Shown here one piece after another: positions 6,214 to 59,625 of a stretch of DNA of 64,000 nt (position 1 is the stretch's first letter; every line of letters starts with the position of its first letter). The translations under genes were made by a program, and so were the position numbers. The stretch lies in NCBI RefSeq assembly GCF_020532645.1, contig NZ_JAJAUZ010000005.1, positions 1 through 64,000 on the forward strand. The letters are read 5' to 3'. The DNA comes from Streptomyces bambusae. GTDB taxonomy: Bacteria; Actinomycetota; Actinomycetes; Streptomycetales; Streptomycetaceae. Under the pieces are notes generated by a model. It saw nothing but the letters and a program-made list of their open reading frames with translations, was not told the DNA's origin and ran no database searches.

Positions 6214-6449
6214 ACGGCGCCCCGGGCCCGGGCACCGGCCCGGGTGCGGCTCGGGGAGGTGGCCCGCCGGGGGTGCCGGCGCAGGTACTCGTCCTCCAGC
6301 TCGGCCATCCTGTGACTGTGCGTGTCCAGGGCCTCGTCCGAGCCGTGCAGCAGGGTCTCGTGCCGGGTCCGGTGGATGGCCTCCAGCTCCTTGAGCAGCC
6401 TGTCCTCGGCAAGCTCTCCCGGCGGTACGCCTTCGTGGTGATCGGGCAT
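6198..6449 (-). CDS. DUF6158-family small protein
   Basis: The ATG at 6449 is chosen because GGAGGAG lies 6 nt upstream; this gives 83 residues. The protein is helical and charged (ELAEDRLLKELEAIHRTRHETLLHGSDEALDTH) and has a basic C-terminus. It matches my memory of the Streptomyces DUF6158 family, whose function is not known. The stop (TAG, 6198-6200) lies inside the end of the PaaI gene, so the two transcripts overlap tail to tail. Confidence 0.7.
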   Translation of the reverse strand: MPDHHEGVPPGELAEDRLLKELEAIHRTRHETLLHGSDEALDTHSHRMAELEDEYLRRHPRRATSPSRTRAGARARGAVQQAG

Positions 6450-10698: not shown

Positions 10699-12285
10699 TC
10701 AGCCCTCGTCGCCCACCGCACCCGCGGCCCGGCGCCGGCGCGCCGCATAGAGCGCCCCGGACCCGAGCAGCAGCGCGCCGACCGCACCCGCCGCAGCCGG
10801 CCAGGCCGCCCCGGCACCGGTGTTCGACAGGTTGCCCCCCGTCCCGGCCGTGGTCCCGTACGAGGGCGACGGCGAGGCGGTGGCACTGGCGGACCCGCTC
10901 GGCGTGGGCGACGCAGTGCCCGACGGCGTCCCCGAGGGCGTGGCGCTGGGCGAGGGCCCGGGCGTGACCGCCAGGTAGACCGGCGCCTTGTTGTCGGCGG
11001 GGTTCACCTCGCCGTTCGCAGGCTCGCTCCCGAGCACGAGCTGCCCGCGCGCCCCCTTCACCTCCTTGAGGATCCGCAGCCGCAGCACCGCCTTCCCGGC
11101 GGCTTCGCACGACACCTGCTGGTACTCGTTCAGCCCGCAGTACCGCACCCCGGGCCGCCCCTCGCCGGGCCCGGGCAGCTCCAGCTCGGTCCCCTCGGGC
11201 AGGTCCACGCGCACGAACGACGGCCGCGGCCCCTCGGGCACCACGGCCGGGTTGGGCACGTCGGTCTCGACCACGTCACCGACCCGCCCCCGCACGGTGA
11301 TCCCCTGGACCGTCCAGTCGGCGCCCTGCTCGTAGTCCTCGGACTGGAAGGAGTACTGCCCCTCCCCGCTGAGCGTGTCGGCCGGCACGGACACGAGCCC
11401 GAGCGGCTGCCCGGTGCCCCGGACCAGCTTCCGGTAGCCCCGGTCGTACTCGGGCAGCGCCCCGAGCGTCTCGATGCGGTACTCGTACCCGCCCTTCATC
11501 TGGTCGTGCACGGTCCGCGCCGTGAACGGCTTCTCCGTCCGGAACGCGGTCCCCGGCTTCAGCCCGCCGGCCTTCGGGAACGCGCAGTAGAAGTACGTCG
11601 TGTCCCGCTGCTGCGGATAGAAGCAGTTCGAGTACCGGGGCCCGGTGAACACGGCCTCCGCGGCCCGCACGTACAGCAGCACCCCGCGCGGCGCCGCGAC
11701 CTGTCCCTCGTTCCCGAAGGCGGGGGTCAGCGGCGGGGCGGCCCGCCGCTGCGCCACGGGGATCCGGTACGCCGGGTGCGCCCCGAGCGCCGCCTTCGGC
11801 TTCCCGACGAACACCCGCGTGTCATGCGTGAAGGCGCCCGCGTTCGAGCTGGAGAACCGGGCCCGGACGGTGCCCGCCTCCCCCACCGGCACGCCCGCGA
11901 CGCTCACCATCGTGAACGGCACGACCTCGGTCCGCTGGTAGAAGTCCCCCCGCCGGCAGGTCACCACGTAGTCCACGGCGGTGCACCCGACACCCAGCCC
12001 CGACAGGGTGACCTTCCCCTTCAGTTCCGAGGCGTCGAACTCGGCGACGACGTCCTCGGCGTTGATCTCGTCCCCGCTCGCCGTACGCCCCTTCGCGTAC
12101 AGCACGGACTCGAACCGGTTCCCCGCGTCCGGCCCGCCCTCGGGCGCCACGAAGTGGAAGTCCTGCGGGGCGTACAGGGCGAGCTCGGGCCGGTCCGCGG
12201 CCTGCGCCGGGGCCGTGCCACCCAGCCCCAGCAGTGCGGCGGCCAGCACGGCCCCTCCCCCTCGCCTGCGTCGGCTCACGCTCAC
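10699..12285 (-). CDS. Large secreted surface protein with sortase-like (LSNTG) anchor
   Basis: The GTG at 12285 follows a purine-rich site and starts a clear Sec signal peptide (AVLAAALLGLGGTAPAQAA). The 528-residue protein has a long body of unknown fold with paired Cys, then a Ser/Pro/Thr-rich wall spacer (about residues 450-485). It ends with LSNTG, a hydrophobic helix and an RRRR tail, the layout of sortase substrates; Streptomyces class E sortases favour LAxTG, so LSNTG is an acceptable variant. The protein should be linked to peptidoglycan. The body may carry immunoglobulin-like modules, as in other Streptomyces LPXTG proteins, but I cannot assign them. Monocistronic. Confidence 0.75.
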   Translation of the reverse strand: MSVSRRRRGGGAVLAAALLGLGGTAPAQAADRPELALYAPQDFHFVAPEGGPDAGNRFESVLYAKGRTASGDEINAEDVVAEFDASELKGKVTLSGLGVGCTAVDYVVTCRRGDFYQRTEVVPFTMVSVAGVPVGEAGTVRARFSSSNAGAFTHDTRVFVGKPKAALGAHPAYRIPVAQRRAAPPLTPAFGNEGQVAAPRGVLLYVRAAEAVFTGPRYSNCFYPQQRDTTYFYCAFPKAGGLKPGTAFRTEKPFTARTVHDQMKGGYEYRIETLGALPEYDRGYRKLVRGTGQPLGLVSVPADTLSGEGQYSFQSEDYEQGADWTVQGITVRGRVGDVVETDVPNPAVVPEGPRPSFVRVDLPEGTELELPGPGEGRPGVRYCGLNEYQQVSCEAAGKAVLRLRILKEVKGARGQLVLGSEPANGEVNPADNKAPVYLAVTPGPSPSATPSGTPSGTASPTPSGSASATASPSPSYGTTAGTGGNLSNTGAGAAWPAAAGAVGALLLGSGALYAARRRRAAGAVGDEG

Positions 12286-12409
12286 CTGGCGCCCCTCTTC
12301 CCGGCCGGTCGGCCATGGTGGTTCACATACGTCTGCACCCACAAGACACACGAGAACCACGAAGGGTTGTACGCCCGCAGAGACTTTTTCCGCCGGTCCG
12401 GCGGACCGG

Positions 12410-13339
12410 TCACACCTCGATGATGATCTTCCCGGCCGCCCGCCCCGTCTGACTGAACTCGAACGCCTCGGCGAGCGCCCCCAGCGGGAACGTCCGCGCC
12501 ACCGGCACCGTCAGCTTCCCCTCCCCCGCCAGCCGCGCCAGCTCCTCCAGATCGCTCCCCACGGGCCGCACCCACATCCACTGCCCGCCGGCCCCGAGCA
12601 CGGACGCGTCCGCGACGGACGCATGCCGCCCGCCCTCCTTCAGCACGGCCGTGGTCACGTCGAGCACTCCGCCGACGAAGTCGGCCACCACGCTCACCCC
12701 TTCCGGCGCGATCTCGTGCACCCGGTCGGTGAGTCCCTCCCCGTACTGCACGGGATCCGCCCCGAGTTCCCGCAGCCGCTCGTGGTTGCGCGGCGAAGCC
12801 GTCCCGACGACCCTCGCGCCCAGCGCCCGCGCGATCTGCACCCCCAGCGACCCGACCCCGCCGGCCGCCCCGTGCACGAGCACGACGTCCCCCGGCCCGG
12901 TCCCCAGCCGCGTCAGCAACTGGTACGCGGTCAGCCCCGCGAGCGGCAGCCCGGCCGCCTGCTCCCAGCTCATCCCGGCCGGCTTGTGCGCGAGCGCCCG
13001 CACCGGCACGGTCACGTACTCCGCGAACGTCCCGCCGTGCACGTAGTCCTTCCGCGCGTACGCGAACACCTCGTCCCCGACGGCGAACTCGGGCACGTCG
13101 ATGCCGACCGCCGCCACGGTCCCTGCCACGTCCCATCCGGGCACCACGGGAAACACCACGTCCATGAGCGCGTCGAGATGCCCGCCCATGATCTTCCAGT
13201 CCACCGGGTTCACGGCGGCCCGGTGCACGCGCACGAGCACCTCGCCGGGGCCGTACTTGGGGCGCGGCACGCGGGTGTCCCGGAGCACCTCGTTCCCGCC
13301 GTACTGCTCGTATGTCATCGCCCGCATGTCCTCGGCCAT
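12410..13339 (-). CDS. NAD(P)-dependent medium-chain oxidoreductase (quinone-reductase-like)
   Basis: Translation is placed at ATG 13339 behind GAAGGGCAGGGA; 309 residues, usual for the family. It has the N-terminal GroES-like domain (GPGEVLVRVHRAAVNPVDWKI) and a Rossmann domain with the nucleotide motif HGAAGGVGSLGVQIARALGA (about residues 142-161). Catalytic zinc Cys are absent, so it belongs to the zinc-free quinone oxidoreductase branch of the MDR superfamily, which reduces quinones or enones with NADPH. The true substrate is unknown. It is separated from the surface-protein gene by 124 nt. Confidence 0.85.
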   Translation of the reverse strand: MAEDMRAMTYEQYGGNEVLRDTRVPRPKYGPGEVLVRVHRAAVNPVDWKIMGGHLDALMDVVFPVVPGWDVAGTVAAVGIDVPEFAVGDEVFAYARKDYVHGGTFAEYVTVPVRALAHKPAGMSWEQAAGLPLAGLTAYQLLTRLGTGPGDVVLVHGAAGGVGSLGVQIARALGARVVGTASPRNHERLRELGADPVQYGEGLTDRVHEIAPEGVSVVADFVGGVLDVTTAVLKEGGRHASVADASVLGAGGQWMWVRPVGSDLEELARLAGEGKLTVPVARTFPLGALAEAFEFSQTGRAAGKIIIEV

Positions 13340-13592
13340 TCCCTGCCCTTCGCTCGGCCCTGCCCCCCTCTCGGCGCGGCCCATCCCATCACACGGCCCC
13401 GACCCGTCCGCTGCGCTCGGCCTGCGCGTGTCGCGGGGTCCCGGGCACCACCCGTGATGCAGGTGTCAAGAAGTGGCCTTGAGCCGTTATTCCTGGCAAA
13501 TCAGCCGCTGCCGGTGATGCACGCAAATCCGTTGCTACGTTCTGCGCGTCGTGACAGCGGCACGGGCCGCCGTCCTTGCAGGGAGGGCATGC

Positions 13593-14375
13593 ATGAGCAT
13601 CGGAGAACGGCAGTCGAGTCGGCGCGGTCTGCCATGGCAGGCACGGAGCGGTGAGGCGGCCGGCGCCTTCCGCAGGGCGGGAAGAATCCGTACCGGCACG
13701 GCGGTCGCCAGAGGCAGAATCGCGGCGGTGATCGGGGCCGTCGTCCTGATCGCCACCGCGATGATCACGGGCACGGCGGGCACGGCCGCCGCTGCGGAAC
13801 GGGGAGCCCGGGCCGCGACGTCCGGGTGGGCCTGCTCCGGGACGCCCGTTCCGGCCGGGTACGTCATCACCGACTACAACCGCAGCCTCTGCAACGGCCA
13901 GGGCGCCTGGTACCAGCAGCCCGTCTACGACGGCGTGTGGGCCTGCACGGGCTCGCCCATCGTGCCCGGATACGTGATCACCGACCACAACCGCAACCTC
14001 TGCAACGGCCAGGGCGCCTGGTACCACGCCCAGCCCCGCAACGGCACCTGGGCGTGCTCCGGCTCGCCCATCGTGCCCGGCTACGTCATCACCGACCACA
14101 ACCGCAACCTCTGCAACGACCGCGGCGCCTGGTACCACGCACCGGCCCGCGACGGCATCTGGGCCTGCTCCGGCTCGCCCATCGTCCCCGGCTACGTCAT
14201 CACCGACCACAACCGCAACCTCTGCAACGGCCAAGGCGTGTGGTACCACCAGCTCGCCCGTGAGGGCCTGTGGACCTGCTCGGGCTCACCCATCCCGTCC
14301 GGCTTCCGGACCACCAACGACAACAACCGCAACGGCTGCAACGGCCAGGGCTCGTGGTACCTCGTGCGCACCTGA
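13593..14375 (+). CDS. Secreted protein with five tandem 37-residue Cys-containing repeats
   Basis: The ATG at 13593 has GGGAGG 6 nt upstream; 260 residues. After a basic, long N-terminus comes one hydrophobic segment ending in GTAAAAE, a probable signal peptide with a late start. The mature part is five repeats with Trp at 13827, 13938, 14049, 14160 and 14271, exactly 111 nt apart. The unit reads WACSGSPIVPGYVITDHNRN, then LCNGQGAWYH. Each repeat has two Cys, fitting one disulfide per unit. I do not recognise a named family; binding to sugar, wall or partner cells is only a guess. A strong hairpin follows. Confidence 0.8.
   Translation: MSIGERQSSRRGLPWQARSGEAAGAFRRAGRIRTGTAVARGRIAAVIGAVVLIATAMITGTAGTAAAAERGARAATSGWACSGTPVPAGYVITDYNRSLCNGQGAWYQQPVYDGVWACTGSPIVPGYVITDHNRNLCNGQGAWYHAQPRNGTWACSGSPIVPGYVITDHNRNLCNDRGAWYHAPARDGIWACSGSPIVPGYVITDHNRNLCNGQGVWYHQLAREGLWTCSGSPIPSGFRTTNDNNRNGCNGQGSWYLVRT
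13827..14372 (+). repeat. Five tandem 111-bp coding repeats
   Basis: The unit boundaries stay exactly 111 nt apart through five copies. Copies 2 to 4 are nearly identical at DNA level (for example the stretch ending in GGCGCCTGGTACCA), while copies 1 and 5 diverge more. This suggests recent internal duplication or gene conversion. Confidence 0.9.
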
Positions 14376-14403
14376 CGTTCCCCCAGGGGGCGGCCGGGCT
14401 CTC

Positions 14404-14430
14404 GTCGGCGGCCCATGTCCGGCCGCCGAC
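14404..14430 (+). terminator. Terminator of the repeat-protein gene
   Basis: GTCGGCGGCC (14404-14413) and GGCCGCCGAC (14421-14430) form a perfect 10-bp stem with a 7-nt loop, 28 nt after the stop. Confidence 0.7.
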
Positions 14431-14505
14431 CGGCCCGGTGGCCGCCGGGCGGGGGCGACTGCGCAGCGGTCGGAGGCGCGGGCTCCGCCCGCACCCCGCC
14501 CCCCA

Positions 14506-15192
14506 TCACCTCCCCCGCCCCCGGCCCCTCAGCACGCAATCCCCGCAGTACCCCCCGCCCTCCACCCGGTAGTACAGGCAGCAGCTGTTGCGCATGAACG
14601 CGAAGCCCAGGCCCTGCTCGTGGATGAAGGTGCCCGTCCCCGCCAGGGGGCCGGTGTCCAGCAGGGAGGCCGCCAGCGGGACGGGGTCGTGAGGTGTGCC
14701 GGGGAGCGCTCCGGTGAGGACCCTCAGGGCCCCCACCAACGCGGATGCGGAGTTGCCGCGCAGGACCTTCGGCGAGATCCCGTACCCGCCTCCCCGCAGC
14801 GCCTCGTCCAGAACGTTCAGGTTCGCTTCAGCCACCGCCGTCAGGCCGTCCCCCACCGGCCCCGGCAGCGCCACCGGCTTCGGCAGGGCCAGCACCAGTG
14901 AGCCGCCCGTCGGCACCCGCCAGTGGACCCGCTCCGGTGACAGGTCCGGGACCTGCCCCGAGAGGGCCGCGGCGCCGAGCGCGAGCGACCACAGCCGGGA
15001 GGCGATGCCCAGGTGCGCGGTCGAAGCGGCCACCTTGTCCGGCCCGGTGCCGATGCGCAGCCCGACCTGGGCGACGTACCCGGCGAGCCCGTCCCCGTAC
15101 AGCTCGGTCAGTGGCCGGTACCCCTCCCCCTCGCCCGCATCGGCAGTGAAGAACGGCCCGACGGCCGCGAGCGCGCGCATGATCTCTTCCAC
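14506..15192 (-). CDS. FhuF-like [2Fe-2S] protein
   Basis: The 228-residue protein ends with NSCCLYYRVEGGGYCGDCVL, the CCx10Cx2C motif that binds the [2Fe-2S] cluster in FhuF-type ferric-siderophore reductases. Upstream there are helices and a HLGIASRLWSLALGAA segment typical of this family. It probably reduces ferric siderophores in the cytosol to release iron. No siderophore transporter is adjacent, although a FepB-like binding protein lies far downstream at 63120. The start is GTG 15192 with a weak ribosome binding site; the ATG four codons later is an alternative. Confidence 0.82.
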   Translation of the reverse strand: MEEIMRALAAVGPFFTADAGEGEGYRPLTELYGDGLAGYVAQVGLRIGTGPDKVAASTAHLGIASRLWSLALGAAALSGQVPDLSPERVHWRVPTGGSLVLALPKPVALPGPVGDGLTAVAEANLNVLDEALRGGGYGISPKVLRGNSASALVGALRVLTGALPGTPHDPVPLAASLLDTGPLAGTGTFIHEQGLGFAFMRNSCCLYYRVEGGGYCGDCVLRGRGRGR

Positions 15193-15238
15193 ACCCAGAA
15201 GTATCCAGGCACGGGCATGCCCTCAGCCGAGGGTCCCC

Positions 15239-16261
15239 TCACCCGGCCACCGCCACCGGCGACGACCCGCCCGGCACGAGGATGCGGGCCTTCCCCGTCC
15301 CGTCCGCAGGAACAGCCCACACGTCCGGGGTGCCCTTGCCCATCAGCGCGTACGCCACCGTCCGCGCGTCCAGCCAGGCCGCCTGGTCGTCGACGCTGCG
15401 GGTCTCGGCGAGCGGAGTCTCCCGCATGGTCCGCAGGTCGAGTACGTGCAGCCGCCAGGGCCGGCCGGCGTCGCCGGACACCTTCTTCTTGAAGGCGATC
15501 CTCGTACCGTCGGGCGACAACGAAGGGCACTCGACGTTCTTCCGCAGCGCCTTCGCCGACCACTTCCGCACGTCCCCTTCAACGAGGTACGTCCGCCCCT
15601 TCGTGGCGACGGTCGCATAGAAGCGGTTGTCGTCGCGGGCGAAGGTGACACCCCAGTAGTTCACGTCGGGCGCATGGTGGCGACGCCCGTCCACGGACAG
15701 CGGGATCTGCTCGATCGACGTCACGAGGTACCCGGTCCGCAGGTCCAGGACGCCCGTCCGGGTCGAGAACCCTCCCCTCGCGTACGAGTCCCCGGACGCG
15801 AACACGGTCCACGACAGCATGCGCCCGGAGGCCGACACCCGGGCCCGGTTGGGAACCCCGGGCACCGTCACCCGCCGTACCTCCCGCATCCGCCGGTCCA
15901 GCACGAGCACGTGGGTCCTCGGCGCCGAGAGCCCCGGCGCCGCCCGCAGGCACACGGCGGTCCCGGCCGCGGCGTGGAACCGGTCGCACCGGGGCCCGCC
16001 ACGGTGGCGCCCCGTCCGGCTCACGCCCCCGCCCACGTCCCCGTACGCCACCCGCCCCGTCCCCGCGTCGCGGAAGTACAGCGCCGGCCCGCTCAACCGG
16101 AACCCACGGTCTTCCGGCTGTTCCCGCCCGGCCGCCCCCTCCGCTCCCCGGACCACGGCCCCCACCGCCACCACGGCGAGCACGACCAGCCCGACCACGA
16201 GAGCCACGGCCCGCCCCCGTGCACCCAACGGCAGCGCAGACGCCTCCCCGCCCCCGCCCAC
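15239..16261 (-). CDS. Membrane-anchored TolB/beta-propeller-like protein
   Basis: The GTG start lies 1 nt after the stop of the upstream metallophosphatase gene (TGA-C-GTG), so the two are translationally linked. One N-terminal transmembrane helix (ALVVGLVVLAVVAVGAVV) anchors a 300-residue extracellular part. That part holds repeated beta-propeller blades, including HVLVLDRRMREVRRV, GVLDLRTGYLVTS, LSPDGTRIAFKKK and HVLDLRTMRETPLAE, of which the third is a classical TolB/WD40-like element. The function is unknown; such proteins usually act as binding scaffolds. Confidence 0.72.
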   Translation of the reverse strand: MGGGGEASALPLGARGRAVALVVGLVVLAVVAVGAVVRGAEGAAGREQPEDRGFRLSGPALYFRDAGTGRVAYGDVGGGVSRTGRHRGGPRCDRFHAAAGTAVCLRAAPGLSAPRTHVLVLDRRMREVRRVTVPGVPNRARVSASGRMLSWTVFASGDSYARGGFSTRTGVLDLRTGYLVTSIEQIPLSVDGRRHHAPDVNYWGVTFARDDNRFYATVATKGRTYLVEGDVRKWSAKALRKNVECPSLSPDGTRIAFKKKVSGDAGRPWRLHVLDLRTMRETPLAETRSVDDQAAWLDARTVAYALMGKGTPDVWAVPADGTGKARILVPGGSSPVAVAG

Positions 16262-22968: not shown

Positions 22969-23010
22969 CCCCGCCGGGCGGCCCGCCGCCTCGCCCCGCC
23001 CCGCCCCCTC

Positions 23011-23070
23011 ACGTCCCGTCACGTCCCGTCACGTCCCGTCACGTCCCGTCACGTCCCGTCACGTCCCGTC
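23011..23070 (+). repeat. Tandem repeat, six copies of ACGTCCCGTC
   Basis: Six perfect copies of a 10-bp unit lie between the STAS and sirtuin genes, in the leader or promoter region of the sirtuin. No open frame uses it with good codon bias. Confidence 0.95.
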
Positions 23071-23118
23071 CCGGAAAACCCTTTCGCTCCCGCCCCTCCG
23101 CCTCCTTACCCTCCCGCC

Positions 23119-56697: not shown

Positions 56698-59625
56698 TCA
56701 GCGGAGCCAGGTGCGCAGGCGGGCTGCCAGGTCGGCGGCGTCCACGGGTTTGGTGACGTGGTCGTCGGCGCCGGCGGCCAGGGCCTTGTCCCGGTCCCCG
56801 GGCATCGCCTGGGCGGTGACGACCACGATCGGCACGTGTGCGTGGGCGGGCATGCGGCGGATGGCCTCGGTGGTGGCGTAGCCGTCCATGCCGGCCATCA
56901 TCACGTCCATGAGGACCAGGTCGACCTCCCCGTGCGCGGCGAGCACCTCCAGACCGGACCGGCCGTCCTCGGCGCGCAGGACCCGCACCCCTTCGGCGCG
57001 GAGGATCTCGGTGAGGGCGAACACGTTGCGCGGGTCGTCGTCGACGACGAGCACGGTGCGGCCCGCCAGGCCGGCCGCGGGGCCGTCGGCCGGGTCGGCC
57101 GCAGGGGTACCGGACCCGGTGGCCGCCCCGGCCGGGTGCGCGGCCGGGGTGGCAGGGCCGGCGCGGCGCACCGGGAGGTAGAGGGTGAACACGCTGCCCT
57201 CGCCGGGCACCGATTCGGTGCCGATCTCCCCGCCGAGCAGGCCGGCGACCTCGCGGCTGATGGACAGGCCCAGGCCGGTGCCGCCGTAGTGGCGGCTGGT
57301 GGAGCCCTCGCCCTGCTGGAAGGCGGCGAACACGGAGTCCAGCCGGTCCGCGGCGATCCCGATGCCGGTGTCGGAGACCCGGAAGGCGAGCACCCCGCCG
57401 GTGTCGTCGAGTCCGGTGGGGACCTCCTCGGGGCCGGCCCGCTCCACCCGGAGTTCCACGTGGCCCTGTTCGGTGAACTTGAGGGCGTTGGCGATGAGGT
57501 TGCGCAGCACCTGCCGGAGCCGCGCCTGGTCGGTGTGCAGTTCCTCGGGCAGCCCCGGGCCGGTGTGGATGCGGAATTCGAGGGCGCGGGCGGCCGCCAC
57601 GGGCTGGAAGGTGGCGTCGCAGTACTCGACGAGCTGGCGCAGCGGGAAGGGGGCGACCTCGACGTCCATCTTGCCGGCCTCCACCTTGGACAGGTCGAGG
57701 ATGTCGTTGATCAGCTGGAGCAGGTCGGAACCGGCGGAGTGGATGACCTCGGCGTAGTCCACCTGCTTCTCGGTGAGGTTTCCGTCGGGGTTCTGGGCGA
57801 GCAGCTGGGCGAGGATCAGCAGGCTGTTGAGCGGGGTGCGAAGTTCGTGGCTCATGTTGGCCAGGAACTCGGACTTGTAGAGCGAGGTGCGGGACAACTG
57901 CTGGGCGCGGACCTCGAGTTCCCGGCGGGCCTGCTCGATCTCCAGGTTCTTGCGCTCGATGTCGCGGTTGCGGTCGGCGAGCTGGGCGGCCTTCTCCTCC
58001 AGTTCGGCGTTGGACCGCTGGAGTTCGCCCTGCCGGGCCTGGAGCTCGCCGGAGCGGGCGCTGAGTTCGGCGGTCAGGTCCTGGGAGCGTTCGAGGAGTT
58101 CGTCGGTGCGGGCGCTGGCGATCAGCGCGCTGACGCTGAGCCCGATGGTCTCGACGACCTGGTCGAGGAAGTCGCGGTGGATGGTGGTGAACGGGGTGAG
58201 GGAGGCGAGTTCGAGGACGCCGAGGACCTGGTCCTCGACCACGATCGGCAGCACGACGAGGGCGGCGGGTTCGGCGCGGCCGGCTCCGGAGGCGATGGTC
58301 GCGTAGCCGGGCGGCAGCCGGTCCACGGACAGGACGCGGCGGGTGCCGGCGCACTGCCCCACCAGGGACTGGCCGAAGCGGAAGCTGCGGGGCGGTTCGG
58401 TGGGGTCGTCGGGTGACCCGTACGCGGCCCGCAGGACCAGGTACGGGCCCCGGTCGTCGGTCTCGGCGAGGAAGAAGGCCCCGTACTGGGCGCCGGCGAG
58501 CGGGGACACCTCGTTGGTGATCAGCTGGGCGAGGGCGGTGAGGTCGCGGGTGCCCTGGAGGAGGCCGGAGATCCGGGCGAGGTTGGTCTTGAGCCAGTTC
58601 TGCTCCTCGTTGGCGCGGGTGGTCAGGCGCAGCGACTCGACCATCGCGTTGATGTTGTCCTTGAGTTCGCCGACCTCGCCGGGGGCCTCGACGGTGATGG
58701 AGCGGGTCAGGTCGCCCTCGGCGACGGCGCTGGTCACGGCGGCGATGGCGCGGACCTGCCGGGTGAGGTTGCCGGCGAGCCCGTTGACGTTCTCGGTGAG
58801 CCGCTTCCAGGTGCCGGAGACGCCTTCCACCTCGGCCTGGCCGCCGAGTTTGCCCTCCGTGCCGACCTCGCGGGCGACCCGGGTGACCTCGGCGGCGAAC
58901 GAGGAGAGCTGGTCGACCATGGTGTTGATGGTGGTCTTGAGTTCGAGGATCTCGCCGCGGGCGGAGACGTCGATCCTGCGGGTGAGGTCACCGCCGGCCA
59001 CGGCCGTGGTGACCTGGGCGATGTTGCGGACCTGGTTGGTGAGGTTGTCGGCCATCGAGTTGACGTTGTCGGTGAGGTCCTTCCAGGTGCCGGAGACGCC
59101 CTGGACGGTGGCCTGGCCGCCGAGTTTGCCCTCGGTGCCGACCTCGCGGGCGACCCGGGTGACCTCCTCGGCGAACGAGGACAGCCGGTCGACCATCGTG
59201 TTGATGGTCTCCTTCAGTTCCAGGATCTCGCCGCTGGCCTCGACCCGGATCTTGCGGGTGAGGTCGCCGTTGGCGACGGCGGTGGCGACCTGGGCGATGG
59301 AGCGGACCTGCGAGGTCAGGTTGTCGGCCATGGTGTTGACGCCGGTGGCGAGCTCCTGCCAGATGCCGCTGACCCGGTGGACCCGGGCGTGGCCGCCGAG
59401 CAGTCCCTGGCCGCCGACCTCCCGGGCCACCCGGGTGACCTCGGAGGTGACGAGGGAGAGCTGTTCGACCATGCCGTTGTAGACGGTGCCGATCTCGCCG
59501 AGCAGGCCGCCCTGGCCCTCCGGGAGCCGGATCGTGAAGTCTCCGTCGCGCACGGCCGTGAGCCCGTCCAGCAGCCTGCGCAGTGCCTCGTCGTTCAGGT
59601 CGGGCTTGCGCCCCGGTCCGTCCAT
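56698..59625 (-). CDS. Soluble hybrid histidine kinase with HAMP repeats, GAF, HisKA, HATPase and receiver
   Basis: The ATG at 59625 has GGAGG 6 nt upstream; 975 residues, without transmembrane helices. Residues about 10-340 are a HAMP array with a 92-residue period ([18 protein letters not shown], then GDLTRRI). GAF is at 345-510, a coiled coil at 510-580, HisKA at 582-650 with His in [11 protein letters not shown], HATPase at 690-805 ([35 protein letters not shown]) and a receiver at 855-975 ([26 protein letters not shown]). Group III fungal Nik1-type kinases and OsaA of S. coelicolor have this plan and act in osmotic stress. A separate response regulator is not seen. Confidence 0.94.
58700..59620 (-). 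repeat. Coding repeat of about 276 bp in the HAMP array
   Basis: The string CCAGGTGCCGGAGACGCC occurs at 58807 and 59083, exactly 276 nt apart, and the surrounding blocks are nearly identical. The full array extends to the N-terminus in more divergent copies, making four 92-residue units. Confidence 0.8.

Follow-up and report, generated by a model that had tools for sequence, protein, structure and literature searches.

Described systems closest to the repeat protein

The beta-propeller lectins of the tectonin and tachylectin-2 kind are built from tandem units rich in aromatic residues. The chaplins and other coat proteins of Streptomyces are small, exported and often multi-copy, and some of them carry paired cysteines. 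The 64,000-nucleotide stretch of Streptomyces bambusae DNA analyzed here (the window) encodes a predicted secreted protein that resembles both: its array is tandem and aromatic-rich like that of the lectins, and the repeat family to which it belongs recalls the coat proteins in size, apparent export, copy number and cysteines. It differs from the lectins, to which no significant match was found, in the two cysteines of each unit, in its distinct end units and in the presence of 4 to 6 units per protein. It differs from the coat proteins in that no chaplin is among the four Pfam families returned at E <= 10, and no common repeat was seen.

A further likeness is to an exported-looking 'hypothetical protein' encoded on pHALHY02 of Haliscomenobacter hydrossis (WP_013769094.1), which contains a repeated C-x4-I-P-x-G-W motif and a second Cys region. 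This protein was found with the 41-residue paralogue of the window protein (E = 6e-9) and with the 38-residue type (E = 4e-9), and was not matched by the window protein itself at E <= 1. It differs in its longer units, additional Cys-Cys pairs and G-L-P-x-G linkers, and is about 27% identical. MbtH-like proteins (PF03621), which are cytosolic partners of adenylation domains, also have a short P-x-G-W motif followed by hydrophobic residues. The 41-residue-type protein L095 reaches 28.5 bits to MbtH solely as a sum over its repeats. Profile-profile comparison (hhalign) led us to reject a relation: the probability was 0.2% for the 37-residue, 9.1% for the 41-residue and 4.7% for the 38-residue units, over 3 to 12 aligned columns. 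The comparison set comprised three MbtH proteins of the window genome, its fourth sequence, L113, having been taken from the wrong strand and being no MbtH.

We searched curated libraries with the window protein and its relatives. The initial annotation had assigned the protein to no recognized family, and this held: Pfam-A gave nothing above curated cut-offs, NCBIfam gave no family at E <= 10 for the window protein and nothing above cut-off for 9 relatives, and the PDB gave no match to the single sequence or to an 18-member profile. The best Pfam score was for ColA_N, with 20.3 bits for the whole protein and 22.8 for the repeat region against a cut-off of 27. When 18 members were scanned singly, weak matches were scattered over 53 families. 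In two other relatives the totals were just over the cut-off (28.5 against 27 for L095 with MbtH, 28.7 against 27 for L101 with Zn_ribbon_bTOP1) and contained no stretch that passed by itself. Such weak totals arise because repeat proteins sum weak matches. ColA_N, Sushi, Yop-YscD and the other Pfam matches were all rejected, being below cut-off or having no passing stretch. The Sushi/CCP module (PF00084) has four cysteines; the window protein has two per 37 residues and scores 8 to 11 bits to it against a cut-off of 20.7.

PADLOC returned no hit for the repeat protein. PHROG totals to families of unknown function were as low as E = 7.4e-11 for a 41-residue relative and 7.3e-7 for the window protein, again with no passing stretch. 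A phage origin was rejected: phage records contained no match, and viral contigs no confirmed relative. Twenty further regions, drawn from the matched places of the Streptomycetaceae sample, were inspected by eye for fused catalytic domains, and the long open frames in several of them were taken as stop-to-stop length. No description of the repeat family was seen in the literature covered, which included PMC4757070 and had most subscription papers outside its scope. As far as sequence comparison goes, the repeat family is no described domain of the curated libraries searched.

Anatomy of the gene and of the repeat array

The host genome comprises 8.30 Mb in 168 contigs. The repeat gene and the features around it are as follows.

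13464 to 13592, + strand: upstream region (promoter, leader), alike along with the gene in relatives, the flanks not (blastn, 5-sequence alignment)
13580 to 13587, + strand: AGGGAGGG, ribosome-binding-site-like (sequence)
13593 to 14375, + strand: ORF for the predicted secreted two-cysteine repeat protein, 260 residues (sequence, ATG at 13593)
13593 to 13796, + strand: signal-peptide-like region (sequence, cleavage point placed by eye)
13827 to 13937, + strand: unit 1, first-unit class, 37 residues (unit alignment, class comparison)
13938 to 14048, + strand: unit 2, middle class, 37 residues (unit comparison)
14049 to 14159, + strand: unit 3, middle class, 37 residues (unit comparison)
14160 to 14270, + strand: unit 4, middle class, 37 residues (unit comparison)
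14271 to 14372, + strand: unit 5, last-unit class, 34 residues (position, short tail, gapped alignment)
14376 to 14457, + strand: strong hairpin after the stop codon, terminator-like, without a T tract (RNA fold)

The initial annotation described a secreted-looking tandem repeat protein, and the ORF, its hydrophobic N-terminal segment, the array of 111-bp period and the two cysteines in each of the five units bear this out. TRF reports the array at 13827-14361, with 4.8 copies, 82% matches and a score of 638. The signal-peptide-like region comprises a long, Arg-containing basic N-region followed by a hydrophobic core and an Ala-rich end, and other family members have a comparable layout; judged by eye, this suggests export. 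Inspection by eye revealed no sortase signal, lipobox or other anchor in the repeat protein. In an alignment of five sequences, AGGGAGGG is unchanged in L029, L030 and L012 and one base off in L028. Elsewhere in the window, a 276-bp unit occurs in three tandem copies at 58637-59472 (TRF score 984), and a near-perfect 10-bp tandem repeat, CCCGTCACGT, in 6.6 copies at 22995-23073.

The array begins at residue 79 with four 37-residue units, followed by a 34-residue last unit whose loop has one residue more and whose tail is absent. Of the five 37-residue units first reported, the number is therefore right, and the length applies to four. Units 2, 3 and 4 share 30/37 residues and 91-98/111 nucleotides pairwise, and unit 1 shares 23-24/37 residues with each of them, so that the copies are not 'exact' as had been stated. 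The best identity between units in 1000 codon shuffles was 9/37, compared with the 23-30/37 observed among units 1-4. The repeats are regular, far above chance, yet inexact. Two motifs once ascribed to every unit are also more restricted: GYVITDHNRN is confined to units 2-4 and GAWYH to units 2 and 3, its counterparts being GAWYQ in unit 1, GVWYH in unit 4 and GSWYL in unit 5.

Across 126 distinct 37-residue units of the family, C3, G11, V13, C22 and W28 are invariant, and W1, P7, Y12, G21, G24 and G26 almost so. The patterns used to select members and units demanded a C, a P, a G followed by an aromatic or similar residue, and a second C. The constancy of C3 and G11, and in part that of Y12 and C22, is thus built in by the selection; that of V13 and W28 is not. 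Outside this set, unit 1 of L029 has L in place of G11. The two cysteines of the 37-residue units are 19 residues apart, and this fixed spacing makes one disulfide per unit plausible. The window protein conforms to the family pattern, W-x-C-x3-P-x3-G-Y-V-x-T-x(6)-C-x-G-x-G-x-W behind a signal-like N-terminus, with a short last unit that in most members ends near R-A. Family composition is 5.5% Trp, 6% Tyr and 9% Asn.

We compared the units by their position in the array. Eighteen loci were set aside, namely duplicates (of the window gene and others), the 41-residue and short types, and sets that were broken or cut. Units of odd length were excluded as well, which left 175 units and 35 proteins with complete unit sets, of which 20 have four units, 14 have five and one has six; the window protein and L028 have five units each and L012 six. 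In 360 divergent protein pairs, mean identity was 0.60 between first units, 0.57 between middle units and 0.56 between last units, as against 0.50 for first with middle, 0.43 for middle with last and 0.42 for first with last units. Divergent pairs were defined as those with first-first and last-last identity both below 0.7, a filter biased against the end classes. Middle units were 0.609 and 0.595 identical at the same index and 0.578 and 0.597 at another index (four- and five-unit proteins, respectively); by this measure their likeness is independent of index, that is, they are interchangeable. The nearest neighbor lay in the unit's own class for 37/39 first, 39/40 last and 95/96 middle units. 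The sole last unit with middle-unit neighbors is unit 5 of the window, since its extra residue shifts the ungapped comparison; a gapped alignment places it among the other last units. The array thus very probably has a first-unit class, interchangeable middle units and a last-unit class as its architecture. We infer an open, capped row from these end classes, and selection at the termini for reasons besides stacking could also make end units distinct.

Distribution, surroundings and promoter

A match was found in 11 of the 295 genomes of a genus sample at E <= 1e-5 and in 69 of 394 Streptomycetaceae genomes at E <= 1e-4, the window genome being counted in both. In the latter sample 7/17 genera were positive, with at least 7 matched places in the top genome; both searches scored only 6 to 8 candidates per genome, so that the number of places in a genome is a minimum. 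A profile search of a class sample matched 7/296 genomes at E <= 1e-3, with one strong match in another family (G761), and a profile of the diverged types matched 2 of the 396 genomes of a phylum sample at E <= 1e-6, both of the same genus and the window genome among them. Most relatives thus belong to Streptomycetaceae. Among named genomes, a search restricted to close relatives found them in Streptomyces huiliensis, S. cinnamoneus and S. sp. SAJ15, and a further relative lies on a megaplasmid of Embleya sp. NBC_00888.

The window genome has a second array at C136:123037-123771 (L009, L024), consisting of five units of about 41 residues (CSFSPIPPGWVVT...) whose subtypes alternate. It also encodes, at C56:61545-61787 (L119), a small exported-looking protein of two diverged units with a G-L-P-V-G linker that resembles that of the Haliscomenobacter protein. 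In profile-profile comparison the 37-residue units matched the 41-residue units with a probability of 97.2% and the 38-residue units with one of 97.6%. A profile built without the window protein or its 41-residue paralogue, and with one member of the 37-residue type (L063), recovers both. The diverged 38- and 41-residue versions and the Bacteroidota plasmid protein have a common core, C...P-x-G-[YW]...C. Several repeat genes of the 41-residue type adjoin each other in two Streptomycetaceae genomes (L093, L094). At L030:5788-6406 a gene copy is broken by a frame change, and a run of N lies within the repeats of L029 at about 6308-6404; the repeats of both loci may be misassembled.

The family could be imagined as structural, the units self-associating and cross-linking by disulfides into a layer on hyphae or spores, in the manner of chaplins though unrelated to them. 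Small, exported-looking repeats rich in Cys, Gly, Asn and aromatic residues would suit such a coat or matrix, as would the several related genes of some genomes. We consider this unlikely: a distribution as patchy as 11/295 genomes ill suits a general coat component, the even number of cysteines per unit favors internal disulfides, and the Pfam search mentioned above brought up no chaplin. As for a transglutaminase-linked matrix, PF09017 had no match in the window genome nor in any control genome.

We compared 25 neighborhoods of the repeat genes, of which those of L029 and L072 are the same region. Genes were taken from a simple caller, which left the repeat gene itself uncalled in L028, L029, L072 and L084. 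The most frequent neighbor is an ABC-transporter family, present in 6/25 (L028, L029, L030, L072, L076 and L085), and the remaining shared families are common to 2 or 3 neighborhoods. That no neighbor family exceeds 6/25 fits a protein acting alone. It also bears on the idea of an antagonism or defense factor, an exported inhibitor or antimicrobial with diversifying units, directed at competitors, grazers or their enzymes. Patchy, sometimes multi-copy and relocating genes, middle units alike by lineage, and Cys-rich exported-looking repeats would all agree with such a role, but no conserved neighbor offers itself as an immunity gene in the 25 neighborhoods and PADLOC and phage records are without match. 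We give it the same low chance as a coat function.

The similarity of the window (12001-16000, blastn) to its relatives starts at 13464 with L028, L030 and L070 and at 13531 with L029, and with each of the four the rightmost alignment extends as far as 14376, directly behind the stop codon. The relatives share about 55-75 nucleotides of further likeness with each other behind the stop. The gene seems to relocate along with its own promoter. RNA folding of 14373-14470 gave -72.6 kcal/mol (z -3.67), and hairpins also follow the stop in L028 (z -5.74) and L012 (z -3.26); a T-tract scan found none at the window hairpin. Next to the gene, at 14506-15192 on the - strand, lies a neighbor with an FhuF 2Fe-2S C-terminal domain, which has a match in 24/31 genomes including the window genome. 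No empty site was seen within flanks of about 1.5 kb, an ADH gene standing beside the FhuF-like gene only in the window genome.

An EM search of 34 upstream regions revealed a box like TTTCSGGMCAAGTT about 135 nucleotides before the start, TAGGGT about 70 nucleotides before the start, and a third motif just before it. The initial run mainly recovered the start codon region, and in rounds two and three the sites of earlier motifs were overwritten with random letters. Motif scores were 154, 124 and 117, as against 59-68 in shuffled sequences. The first two motifs occur mostly in members of genus g14, presumably Kitasatospora. The window matches the TTTCSGGMCAAGTT-like box more weakly (7.4, compared with up to 15) and has no TAGGGT motif (score -0.8). 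Read as its reverse complement, the box may correspond to the AdpA consensus, with agreement at 9/10 positions.

Evolution of the middle units and proposed function

Silent sites were compared between units. Units 2-4 of the window differ from each other at 3-5/28 silent codons, where codon usage by itself would give about 10. Between the window and L028, middle units differ at 7-11 of 22-27, about the codon-usage expectation, whereas the two first units differ at only 1/26. The window middle units are nearer to unit 1 of L028 (4/20, 6/23 and 2/21) than to most of its middle units, and differ from the window's own unit 1 at 3-4 of 21-22; given this closeness to both first units, a copy resembling unit 1 may have served to rebuild the middle of the window array. 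Units 2 and 3 of L028 are identical at 111/111 nucleotides and units 3 and 4 of L012 at 109/111, and in L033 and L034 the middle units are alike at the protein level. From the silent-site and nucleotide identities, the middle would thus be homogenized or re-expanded within lineages and the first unit inherited.

The recent expansion proposed in the initial annotation stands for the middle, whose units are mutually alike at silent sites in the window and whose number varies among relatives; it does not extend to the whole array, as end classes conserved across the family show that this is no recent burst. A recent, lineage-specific expansion in which unit number has no distinct function would explain the near-identical middle units of L012 and L028, the silent-site likeness in the window and the protein-level likeness in L033 and L034. 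It sits poorly with a widespread family that conserves its end classes, spacing and residues, and we regard it as improbable, somewhat more so than the coat and antagonism readings.

AlphaFold2 gave no usable fold for the five-unit model (six rows, pLDDT 33.8) and a weak model for a two-unit construct (ten rows, pLDDT 55.5). The latter, of low confidence, has short strands at Y-V-I, W-Y-H and W-A-C, and a Foldseek search of the PDB with it gave nothing at E <= 0.001, the best match having E 3.2. A tectonin-like beta-propeller lectin, with the units as blades of a closed ring, is the least probable reading: an Azospirillum protein (L032:3965-4915), the second match among plasmids, looks tectonin-like by eye and can be aligned along 171 residues (24% identity) with similarly spaced D-G-x-I-W...G-T-P, but its E of 0.06 is not significant, and units of only 37 residues, 4, 5 or 6 in number and with distinct ends, suit an open row better.

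The reading that we favor, tentatively, is a stand-alone gene for a capped array of disulfide-pinned modules that acts as a multivalent extracellular binder. The sequences show its layout: a signal-like N-terminus, a first unit that we take as an N-cap, between 2 and 4 middle units that are interchangeable, and a last unit that we take as a C-cap. Each unit would fold as a small beta module pinned by a single Cys3-Cys22 disulfide, the units would stack into an open, capped row, and conserved positions occupied by Trp, Tyr, Arg and Asn would form a repeated binding face; units, row and face together would make for multivalent binding outside the cell. The ligand would most likely be a repetitive surface one, for example a polysaccharide or cell-wall glycan, of the producer's own hyphae or of its neighbors'. 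Sugar binding is proposed from composition and by analogy. Gain or loss of middle units would then tune avidity.

Beyond the single gene, it is conceivable, if a little less likely than the binder role itself, that these proteins represent a superfamily, so far undescribed, whose P-x-G-[YW] arrays are capped and pinned by disulfides. Its genes would relocate between Streptomycetaceae genomes as self-contained promoter-gene-hairpin units with a middle homogenized by lineage, and its products would be natural modular binding scaffolds that grow or shrink as middle units are added or lost.

Repeat proteins that are exported form a familiar class, but this repeat family is without an entry in the curated libraries searched. 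It is spread through well-studied antibiotic producers, some of whose genomes carry several copies. Should the units indeed be a small capped module, the family would provide a bacterial binding scaffold that is simple and open to testing, and would allow the evolution of repeat number between fixed end caps to be studied cleanly.
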